From Micromonospora sp. R77 (GTDB lineage: Bacteria; Actinomycetota; Actinomycetes; Mycobacteriales; Micromonosporaceae), in assembly GCF_022747945.1 (NCBI RefSeq), contig NZ_JALDST010000001.1:5394001-5458000 (forward strand): DNA of 64,000 bases, given 5' to 3'. The notes beneath the pieces are model-generated. The model worked only from the letters and a program-made list of their open reading frames with translations. It ran no database searches and was not told the origin of the DNA. The stretch's first letter is position 1, and each line of letters opens with the position of its first letter. The position numbers were made by a program, and so were the translations under genes. Below, piece after piece: positions 20,078-42,879 of the stretch.

Positions 20078-23000
20078 TCAGTCCTCCAGCAGGGGAGTGT
20101 CCGGGGAACCGGCGGCCCGGTCCAGCATCCCGCGCAGCGCGGCGAGCCGGTCCGCCGCGGTCGTCGGGTCGAACCGGGCGGTGGCGTACTCCAGCCAGCC
20201 GGTGAAGCCGTCGGCCGACGGGGTCAGCCGCACGTGCAGGTCGTACCGGCTCGTCCCGCGCTCCGGGGTCACCTCGCGGAACGTCAACGGCCCGGCCCGG
20301 TCCGGCGTGGCCGGCAGGTTCTGCACCGCGAACATCGCCCGCGCGCCGACCGCCGCCGGCAGCAGCGGGTACGGCACGTCCTGGTGCTCCCAGACCGCCG
20401 TCAGGGTGTCCCGCACCCGGCCGACCAGCTCCCGGGTCGACGGCGTACCGGTCAGGTCGACCGGGACCGGCAGCACGTTGGCGAAGTCCCCGACGACCTC
20501 CTCGGCCGCCAGGTCGGGTCGGTTGCTGACCGGGACCGCCACCACGAAGCGCCGTTGGCCGCTCGCCGCGCCGAGCCACGCCTGGACGGCGGCGAAGAGC
20601 ACCATGAAGTCGGTGCCGCCGGTCTCGTCGCGCAGCCGGCGCAATCCGTCGGCCGTCGCCCCGGTCACCGTGAAGTCCAGCCGCGCCCCGGCCATCGACC
20701 CGTCGTCCGGCCGGTCCGCGGCGACCTCCAGCGGGTCGACGCCGCGCAGCCGGTCCGCCCAGAAGGCCAGGCCGGGATCGAATTCGCCGGCCGCGACGGC
20801 CCGGGCCTGGGTCCGGGCGTACCCTGCGAAGCCGGTGACCCGGGGCAGCTGCGGTGGCTGGCCGGCGACGATCGCGGCGTGGAGCGCGGCGAGGTCGCGG
20901 CGGAGCACCGACAGCGACCAGCCGTCCGCGACCACGTGGTGCACCACCAGGCTGAGCAGGTGGTCCCGTGGCCCGCAGGAGGCCAGCAGGCAGCGGACCA
21001 CCGGCCCGGTGGCCAGGTCGAACGGTCGGCGCAGGTCGGCCTCGGCCAGCGCCACCGCCTCGGCGAGCGGGTCGGGGCCGGTGCAGGTGTGCAGCACCAC
21101 CGGCACCGGCGTCCCGCTGCCCGGCTCGTCCACCACCCGCAGCGGGCGGCCGGCCACGGTCGGGTAGCGGGTGCGCAGCCCGGCGTGCCGGGCGACCAGC
21201 GCGTCGACCGCCCGGATCACCGCCACCTGGTCGAGCGGCCCGCTGATGTGGACGGTCATCGGCAGGTGGTACGCGTGGCCCTGCGGGTGACCGGCGTCGG
21301 CGAGCAGGTGCTGCTCGGCCGGGCTCAGCACGTCCTGCGGCACGGCGACCTCGGCGGTGACCGGGGCCAGGTCGCCGCGACGGGAGGCGGAGCCGGCTGC
21401 CGGTCCAGCCACGCGGCGATGTCGGCGACCCGCGGCGCGGCGAGCAGGTCGCGCAGCGGATGCGGTGGCCCGTCGCGGCGGCGAGCCGGGCGACCAGCCG
21501 GGCGGCGAGCAGCGAGTGCCCGCCCCGGGCGAAGAAGTCGTCGTCCGCACCGACCGGTGCCGGACCGACCAGGTCGTCGCCGAGCACCTCGGTGAAGGCG
21601 GCGGCCACCCGGCGTTGGCGTCGGTGTGGCAGGGCCGGCCGGCCGTCGGGACGTCGGCGAGCGCGACGAGCGCCCGCCGGTCCACCTTGCCGTTTCCGGT
21701 GACCGGCAGGGCGTCCCGGGCGACCACCGCCGCCGGGACCAGCGCCGCCGGAGACGGCCGCGCAGCGCGTGCAGGAGCCCGTCGGTGTCCAGGGCGGCCG
21801 GCGTCACGAACGCGACGAGCCGCAACTCCGGGGCGGTGCCGGCGGCCACCACGGCGGCGGCGGTCACCCCGGGGCGCCCGCAGCGCGTGTTCGACCTCGC
21901 CCGGCTCGATCCGGTGCCCCCGGATCTTCACCTGGTCGTCGGCCCGGCCCGGAACTCCAGGCCGGCCGTCGGCGTGCCGGACGCCGAGATCACCGGTGCG
22001 GTACAGCCGCGCACCGGGTCGGTCCGACCACGGATCGGGCACGAACCGCTGGGCGGTCAGGGCCGGCTGCCCGTGATAGCCGTACGCCAACCGGTCGCCG
22101 CCCAGCCAGATCTCCCCGGGTCACCCCGGGCGGCACCGGTAGGCCGTCCGCGTCGACCACGTACACCCGGATGCCGCTGATCGGCGCGCCCAGCGGGGCC
22201 GGGCCGGTCGTCGGGTCGCTGTCGCCCACCGGGTGGCAGGTCGCGGTCATCGTGGTCTCGGTCGGGCCGTACTGGTTGACCACCCGGGCCGGCCGGCGAA
22301 CGCGGCGGTCGCCGCTGCCGCGTCGGCCAGGTCCAGCGGCTCGCCGGAGACCAGCACGACGCAGCGCCGCCCCCGTCCCAGGTCGCCCGGGCCGCCGCGG
22401 TGAGCGCCCGCAGCACCGTCGGGACGGCGGCGAGCACGCAGGTCACCCCGGCGCGGTCCACCGCCTCCCGCATCGCCTCCGGGTCGGCGCGGTGCTCCGG
22501 TCGAGGAAGACCACGGTGGCCCCGGCGGCGAGCGGGCCGAACAGGTCGCGGGTGGACGCGTCGAACGACGCCGAGGCCAGTTGCAGCACCCGGTCGCCCG
22601 GACCGACGGCCCACTCGGCGAGCAGGTAGTCGGTCAGGTAGCTCGCGGCGGCGTGGTGCGGGGTGAGCACGCCCTTCGGCCGGCCGGTGGAGCCCGAGGT
22701 GTACGCGACGTAGGCGAGGTCGTCGGGGGTGGGTTCCGGCCCGGGCCGCGCCGGCCGGGGGTCGGCGGTGAGGGTGAGGTCGGCTCCGGCGAGCAGCGCG
22801 GCGCAGCCGCTGTCGGCCATCAGGGCGGCGTGCCGGTCGCCGGCTGGTCCGGATCGAGCGCCACGTACGCCGCGCCGGAGCGCAGCACGCCGAGCAGCGC
22901 GACGGCGAGCGCCGGTCCGCGCGGGACGCGTACCGCGACCCGGTCGCCCCGACCCAGCCCGGCCCCGGCGAGGCGCCCGGCCAGCTCCGTCGCACCCTCG

Positions 23001-42300: not shown

Positions 42301-42879
42301 GCGGTGTTGTCGGCCTGGGGTGCCGGTGACGACGTGCTGCTGGGTACGCCGGTGGCCGGTCGTCCGGACGAGGTGCTGGAGGACCTGGTCGGGTTCTTCG
42401 TGAACACGGTGGTGCTGCGTACCGACCTGTCGGGTGACCCGTCGCTGACCGAGCTGGTGGGGCGGGTGCGGGACGTCGACCTGGCCGCCTACGACCACCA
42501 GGACCTCCCGTTCGAGGACGTGGTACGGGTGGTCAACCCGCCCCGCGCGCTGAACCGCCACCCGGTCTTCCAGGTCATGATCGTCGCGCAGGACCGCGAG
42601 GAGATCGAGGTCGAGCTGCCCGGACTGGTGCTCACCGAGCAGCCGCACACCTCCACCACCGCCAAGTTCGACCTCAACCTGCACCTGCGCGAGCGCTACC
42701 ACCCCGACGGGGCGGCCGCCGGCGTCCACGCCAGCCTGGAGTACGCCACCGACCTGTTCGACCACGACACCGTGACCGCCCTCGCCGACCGGATCACCGC
42801 GCTGCTGGCCGCCGCCACCGCCGCGCCCGACACGCCCCTGCGGGGCGTCCTCGCCGCAGTGGCCGCCGCCCATGCCTGA
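30337..42879 (+). CDS. PKS-NRPS: ACP-KS-AT-ACP-AMT-C-A-T-C-A-T-C (six apparent frameshifts)
   Basis: About 4180 codons. ACP1 (FGLSSRQAV, 30364-30570). KS (30655-31890) with Cys in DTACSSSL and His in EAHGTGTPLGDP and IGHAEAAAG. AT (32180-33010) with GHSVGQ and HPFHSPLM, malonyl-like. ACP2 (LGADSIVLF near 33350). PLP aminotransferase (33780-35160) with Lys in TYGKVLGGGLP. C1 (HHLVTDGWS). A1 (36690-38130) with code D-V-G-E-I-G-S-I-D, the ornithine code. T1. C2 (HHVAGDAWS). A2 (39790-41250, tentative D-P-L-K-F-G-L-I-E). T2. C3 (HHVAGDAWS). No KR: the beta-ketone is left for transamination, as in mycosubtilin/iturin. Breaks near 33010, 33378, 33535, 35850, 36685 and 40195 each need one added base. 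GTG 30337 follows a G-rich ribosome site. Confidence 0.88.
38789..39385 (+). repeat. Condensation-domain DNA repeat, copy 1
   Basis: This C2-domain segment is nearly identical, without gaps, to the DNA exactly 3134 bp downstream (41923-42519, C3 domain). It covers HHVAGDAWS through YDHQDLPF, with only scattered differences. Flanking parts of the two C domains are clearly more diverged, which points to recent duplication or gene conversion. Confidence 0.8.
41923..42519 (+). repeat. Condensation-domain DNA repeat, copy 2
   Basis: Second copy of the C-domain segment, colinear with 38789-39385 at a constant offset of 3134 bp. A repeat of this length could also cause recombination or short-read assembly collapse. 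Confidence 0.8.

Follow-up and report, generated by a model that had tools for sequence, protein, structure and literature searches.

The stretch of DNA from Micromonospora sp. R77 considered here (G000:C1:5394001-5458000, 64,000 nucleotides, hereafter the window) contains two divergent operons for nonribosomal peptide synthetases (NRPSs), whose two largest proteins both end in a condensation (C) domain. On the plus strand, Pfam recognizes a fatty acyl-AMP ligase (FAAL); a phosphopantetheine-binding (PP-binding), a ketosynthase (KS), an acyltransferase (AT), a class-III aminotransferase (AMT) and a C domain, followed by two adenylation-thiolation-condensation units (A-T-C); and a separate thioesterase (TE). 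On the minus strand it recognizes half a C domain with A-T and then C-A-T-C-A-T-C in broken pieces. Since the reading frames are broken in this assembly, domains in the window were called on single-frame pieces and the architecture was cross-checked in the syntenic relative G057, which by protein name is Micromonospora mangrovi (the M. mangrovi protein P0001 is 100% identical to G057; the genus of the relative G094 is taken from P0039 of M. siamensis). The plus-strand hybrid of a polyketide synthase (PKS) and an NRPS, PKS-NRPS (30337..42879, frames broken), has the order ACP-KS-AT-ACP-AMT-C1-A1-T1-C2-A2-T2-C3, in which ACP denotes an acyl carrier protein and the second ACP is visible only in G057. 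Its AMT domain (33964..35163, PF00202), the proposed installer of a β-amine on the acyl chain, has glutamate-1-semialdehyde aminomutases as top NCBIfam models, below cut-off. The terminal domain C3 (41554..42843) is followed within a few codons by the stop codon (42877-42879). The FAAL gene (43739..45514, plus strand), which presumably loads the acyl starter, combines an AMP-binding with a DIP2-like C-terminal domain and is 88% identical to that of G057; the NCBIfam FAAL models match, but below their cut-offs. On the minus strand lie NRPS-1 (27673..30162), which consists of a half C domain (29587..30162, start coordinate taken from the 829-aa protein P0122), an A domain with the code DLYDFSLIWK and a T domain, and NRPS-2 (20078..27683, frames broken), with the order C4-A-T-C5-A-T-C6. 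The terminal domain of NRPS-2, C6 (20087..21328, minus strand), carries an intact HHVVADGWS, as stated in the preliminary description of this DNA, and its end at 20087 is a few codons away from the stop at 20078-20080.

In G057, both megasynthases are unbroken. PKS-NRPS is a single frame of 4484 aa with four PP-binding, one KS, one AT, one AMT, three C and two A domains, and NRPS-2 is a single frame of 2566 aa in the order C A T C A T C (three C, two A, two T), with C6 directly behind the last T domain and a tail of 3 aa. Neither a TE nor a reductase domain was found by Pfam on these two proteins, and none of PKS-NRPS, NRPS-1 and NRPS-2 of G057 carries a C-terminal ring-closing thioesterase as in iturin-type synthetases, whereas FAAL, KS-AT and AMT stand ahead of the first C domain as in an iturin-type front end. 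By its domain content, the locus is thus a putative lipopeptide line without an integral release domain, which agrees with the preliminary description. The domain C6 was searched in 160 genomes of the genus, R77 included, of which 155 gave some match at E 0.001; the best were G057 with 85% identity, inside the open 2566-aa frame, and G094, G061 and G130 with 49-50%. A family scan with the G094 domain (300 genomes, a draw that G057 lies outside of; threshold E 1e-80) gave 15 matches, eight at 49% or more (R77 itself, G094, G061, G130 and, at 53-57%, four genomes of genus g44) and seven at 40-43%. The four (G202, G237, G260 and G268) are called Dactylosporangium-type here, after a name that we infer.

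NRPS-2 ends in a C domain in all eight relatives examined, although in G130 it is divided over two frames, and in G268 C6 stops at model position 422 of 433, with a match that ran across a TGA. A second megasynthase ending in C is found in five of the eight, so that this layout is hardly due to chance, and the A-T-C ends read in the preliminary description for both proteins hold in Pfam and in the G057 frames. An exporter of the MFS family (18754..20076, minus strand, PF07690) lies immediately at the NRPS-2 end in the window and directly after NRPS-2 in 8/8 relatives, and an Asp/Glu racemase-family gene (18036..18749, minus strand, PF01177) accompanies NRPS-1 and NRPS-2 in all seven relatives whose NRPS-1 surroundings were read. 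The Dactylosporangium-type genomes keep all three synthetases. Each of the four has a homolog of the NRPS half of PKS-NRPS (49-52%) that ends in C and adjoins a type II-like TE gene, an NRPS-2 homolog (51-53%) with its MFS gene, divergent from or near the former, and one NRPS-1 homolog (58-60%), which lies about 80 kb off, next to a racemase gene, in G260 and G268 and on a separate contig in G202 and G237. An AMT homolog (61-63%) is present in all four, on a separate contig in G202 and within a separate KS-AT-T-AMT protein in G260. The front end of G094, G061 and G130 consists of A-T, C-A-T, a P450 and a stand-alone C gene, and no AMT homolog was found there at E 1e-60. AMT thus co-occurs with the ornithine-type line in 6/6 genomes, but not in the three that start with A-T. 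In G260, a locus of about 150 kb (L147, L123-L125, L142-L146) holds the three synthetases with giant modular PKS genes and additional NRPS genes around them.

Phylogeny separates the two terminal C domains. A quick tree, open in its deep branches, was built from 89 rows (86 of them distinct), sampled out of 685 C domains according to context label, with thinning and a random draw. In it, C6 falls into one clade with the other terminal C domains of the NRPS-2 family (11 rows, SH-aLRT 100), whereas C3 pairs with the C2 domain of its own protein both in the window and in G057 (four rows, SH-aLRT 100). The nearest neighbors in a second, faster tree with 161 rows are consistent with both groupings, and by these trees C3 and C6 differ in ancestry. 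HHxxxDG is kept in all 19 C6 rows, as is the motif G[PD][FY]A[ND][IV][VL]PV[PR].D; these rows include near-copies and one genome under two labels and are not 19 independent cases. Between C6 and the stop there are 1-13 residues. All 13 proteins that were picked by length and identity among 120 listed matches of 2516 have the layout C A T C A T C and 12 share the C6 motif; seven of the 12 are in the tree, all inside the C6 clade, and the thirteenth, P0120, falls outside. The predicted structure of C6 (mean pLDDT 90.4) has the full C fold. Compared by sequence, C6 is nearer to ordinary C domains than to the fungal TqaA (179 bits for Txo1, about 26 bits for TqaA chains), and the CT domain of TqaA was not among the 50 matches listed in fold searches of the model, which excludes nothing. 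The preliminary description had named a TE or reductase domain, inactive terminal C domains, or docking to a synthetase outside the window as outcomes that would speak against release at this position; Pfam showed neither a TE nor a reductase on the unbroken G057 proteins, the kept motif argues against inactivity, and no further C domain lies within 700 kb on the same contig. C6, retained in related bacteria, therefore probably frees the product. The added statement that such release is uncommon in actinomycetes is overstated. In a survey of 92 NRPS frames of the fetched loci, which is biased to C6-like sequences and includes cut frames, 18 end in T-C and 11 of the 18 are actinobacterial, although only three of these 11 keep HHxxxD. 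Such counts leave the claim of rarity weak.

For C3, a role in release appears unlikely. C2 and C3 of the window share 79% identity, whereas either has only 51-55% to the Dactylosporangium-type counterparts compared, which looks like a recent duplication or gene conversion. The nine C2/C3 rows compared read.NT.VLRT. In the tree, C3 falls with internal C domains that elongate; since the tree holds no labelled reference types (LCL, DCL, Cy, E), the description as elongation-like rests on context. The likely role of C3 is therefore elongation in trans, on NRPS-1, rather than release, and no recognizable docking segment was seen in its tail. Both C2 and C3 (38420-42843) read HHxxxDA instead of HHxxxDG.

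The partner for such an activity would be NRPS-1, whose N-terminus matches the C model only from about position 186-191 of 433 onward (E < 1e-5 in 8/11 entries). The N-termini from the window and from G057, with two entries for the latter, have diverged too far to score by themselves; a profile built from eight NRPS-1 N-termini including that of the window hits the second half of solved C domains (e.g., McyB residues 199-462), and Pfam Condensation is detected in six of its eight members. HHxxxDG is absent from all 11 entries (10 different proteins). As judged from these alignments, what NRPS-1 retains of its C domain is the C-terminal half alone, in line with the preliminary description. The predicted structure of the half C domain (mean pLDDT 62.4) was too weak for a search and was not used. 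In all nine genomes, a complete C domain is available to NRPS-1, as terminal C3 in six and as the stand-alone C gene in three, and the missing C function looks to be supplied by C3 in the window and in G057. Docking by charge was considered as well; some lines have an acidic C-terminus on NRPS-1, whereas G094 and G061 do not, and no claim was built on it. The A code DLYDFSLIWK is identical in the window and four Micromonospora relatives, and the same motif stretches are present in four Dactylosporangium-type proteins and an Amycolatopsis protein. This code resembles that for cysteine, at most a tentative guide to the substrate; a PDB search, which placed LgrA first and BmdB lower, did not decide the matter, and no match to the exact A-domain codes was found in the literature searched.

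Taken together, we favor with modest confidence an assembly line in the order FAAL, PKS-NRPS, NRPS-1 and NRPS-2, after which C6 would release the chain by means of an amine of the chain itself, giving a macrolactam. FAAL would load a fatty acid onto the first ACP, KS-AT would extend it once, and AMT would install the β-amine. Modules 1 and 2 of PKS-NRPS would then add two residues, the first of them read as ornithine; its code DVGEIGSIDK, which we take to be that for ornithine, is identical in the window, in G057 and in the four Dactylosporangium-type genomes. C3, or the stand-alone C protein, would condense in trans for NRPS-1, whose half C domain would be inert, and NRPS-1 would hand the chain to NRPS-2 for two more residues. 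Finally, C6 would close a ring by letting an internal amine, most likely that at the start of the chain, attack the last thioester. This would be the β-amine here and the α-amine in the three Micromonospora lines with an A-T start; the side chain of ornithine is a second candidate. As six genomes have AMT and the other three should keep the α-amine of the first residue, a free start amine is expected in every line, and a head-to-tail macrolactam is thus the economical reading. The ring of mycosubtilin is likewise closed on a β-amine (PMC4219810, as far as the excerpt of that paper goes). From the domain layout we infer the protein order, the C domain acting in trans, the cyclization, the amine used and the product. 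The same order, and a β-amino acyl group with five residues, had been put forward in the preliminary description and are supported by the five A domains across the three synthetases and by the complete C domain available to NRPS-1. No product of the cluster was found in the literature searched.

An unlikely alternative is that C6 attaches the completed chain to a small external molecule (an amine, an amino sugar or an alcohol), which would give a linear, capped product. The modeled fold of C6 resembles that of a normal C domain that takes up an acceptor, terminal C domains of the rhabdopeptide type are known to use external amines, and sugar genes (a DegT-type aminotransferase, GFO/IDH, an epimerase, glycosyltransferases) lie 10-16 kb off. 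However, these sugar genes have no match in 55 kb each of G094, G061 and G130, no gene with an evident role in amine formation is among those shared with these genomes (NRPS-1, NRPS-2, MFS, racemase, TE), and an internal amine is expected in every line anyway. It is also conceivable, but improbable, that two chains converge: NRPS-1 would start a second chain, C6 would join the tripeptide to the β-amine (or the ornithine side chain) on PKS-NRPS, and C3 would close the ring onto the NRPS-1 residue. This route would lead to the ring proposed above, only built in another order, both terminal C domains would be employed, the operons are indeed divergent, and a decayed C domain ahead of A-T also occurs in start modules. 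Yet C3 as a near-copy of the internal C2, with a stand-alone C gene in its place in three relatives, fits elongation, without being incompatible with the other order.

The separate TE gene (42872..43614, plus strand, one frame break, PF00975 on two pieces), like the MFS gene at the NRPS-2 end, was missing from the preliminary description. Its start overlaps the stop of PKS-NRPS, and a TE gene is present in 8/8 relatives, so that hydrolysis of the chain in trans, with C6 left as a non-catalytic gate or remnant, has to be weighed. We regard this as very improbable. Type II TEs edit, and the gene encodes a stand-alone protein of about 245 aa; the closest solved relatives of the G057 ortholog are stand-alone type II TEs including RifR, and HHxxxDG in every C6 row would not be expected of a remnant. 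The poorest chances of all we give to a hand-over, in which C6 passes the chain to another synthetase beyond the window. Extra NRPS genes do occur at the same loci in Dactylosporangium-type genomes, but the 700 kb around the cluster without another C domain speak against it, as do the single strong half C domain of the NRPS-1 type in each of five genomes and the tail of G057 NRPS-2, which leaves no space for a docking segment behind C6.

Release by terminal C domains is already known; new is the combination with a β-amino lipopeptide front end, with a half-C module whose C domain lies elsewhere, and with the conserved C6 clade. The mycosubtilin synthetase ends in a TE domain. In the excerpted account of the iturin/mycosubtilin and puwainaphycin systems, these share with the present locus a FAAL, a PKS module, an aminotransferase between PKS and NRPS, and a β-amino acyl lipopeptide, whereas the puwainaphycin synthetase has a thioesterase at the end, where a terminal C domain stands here (PMC4219810). 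Two further differences from these systems are that module 3 has its C domain in a separate protein and that the locus belongs to an actinomycete. For fungi, terminal-C release by TqaA and others is described (PMC11546977), i.e., a C-type domain at the NRPS end and macrolactam release by a terminal amine, the latter being only proposed here. C6 differs in being bacterial and in its sequence, which is closer to that of ordinary C domains than to that of TqaA. Among actinomycetes, TxtA and TxtB of thaxtomin each end in a C domain, and FkbP and RapP of FK506 and rapamycin have a terminal C domain as well; they lead to a small ring or a lactone and are not known to have a β-amino acyl starter or a half-C module. 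As excerpted, a review states that thaxtomin is produced by two NRPSs and that bacterial lines typically end in TE (PMC11610984), and the ester-forming C domains of FkbP and RapP group with LCL types (PMC12304814). Release by a terminal C domain is also claimed, in the part of the paper used, for palmerolide, a bacterial PKS-NRPS line without TE, but there the C domain is truncated to 133 aa and the line is not an actinomycete lipopeptide line (PMC8739492). HtmB2-CT (PDB 8z0q/8z0r, known here by title and molecule name only) is no closer to C6 than several ordinary C domains. Capreomycin and viomycin are not known to contain a lipid part. They resemble the present case as cyclic pentapeptides from split NRPS genes of actinomycetes, but one module lacks an A domain there, according to the excerpt, whereas one lacks a working C domain here (PMC12400406). 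Karnamicin, Rhodococcus, jejumide, MKM depsipeptide and nemamide, each seen in excerpts, were considered as precedents and set aside, as was erythrochelin, whose mentions in the excerpts carry no word on a terminal C domain.

Beyond the single locus, we tentatively suggest, as a rather speculative extension, that different front ends (a one-step lipid, a giant polyketide or a plain amino acid) share an interchangeable NRPS-1/NRPS-2 back end, a plug-in release cassette that would take a β- or an α-amine. Its inert half C domain would only dock a borrowed C domain, and its last C domain would belong to a ring-closing clade with G[PD][FY]A[ND]..PV replacing the usual.NT..LR. Ring closure is a bottleneck of peptide engineering, for which TE domains are the customary tool; a bacterial ring-closing C clade serving unrelated front ends would, if true, be a second one. 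NRPS-1 would moreover offer a natural test case of a module that is divided between its C and its A domain.

The broken frames were compared with G057 over 16 genes, a set apart from the phosphopantetheinyl transferase stretch, which also looks split, and from genes beyond 56000. Frame-breaking indels number 27 in NRPS-2, seven in PKS-NRPS and one each in the TE, NRPS-1 and PIG-L genes, with none in the 11 others. A G/C run of at least four lies within 10 bp of 8/27 indels in NRPS-2 and 4/7 in PKS-NRPS, versus 24% at random places, and no clear homopolymer pattern is seen at the indels of these two genes. After exclusion of the codons that lie up to about 9 bases from a gap (221 of 2525 for NRPS-2), the remaining ones contain no nonsense codon in any of the 16 genes. 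The dN/dS ratios of NRPS-2 (0.327) and PKS-NRPS (0.319) are within the range of the others (0.139-0.536), though above several of them. From this comparison, an old-standing decay of the synthetase genes appears unlikely, and sequence or assembly error, or a very recent loss, fits better.

The cluster has further neighbors on both sides. The stretch 3913-16115 contains EryCIII-type glycosyltransferases, sugar genes, a PIG-L deacetylase, a formyltransferase and an MqnA-like protein (PF02621); it is matched in G057 and has no match in 55 kb each from G094, G061 and G130. Between 46722 and 51424, an FAD monooxygenase with an ABM domain, a second ABM piece, a P450 and a polyketide cyclase (PF04673) form a group of aromatic-polyketide tailoring genes that adjoins the cluster, in M. 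mangrovi too; no minimal PKS was seen among the scanned pieces. Finally, a phosphopantetheinyl transferase N-domain (PF17837), in split frames at 16641-18977, is possibly an activator of the carrier proteins.

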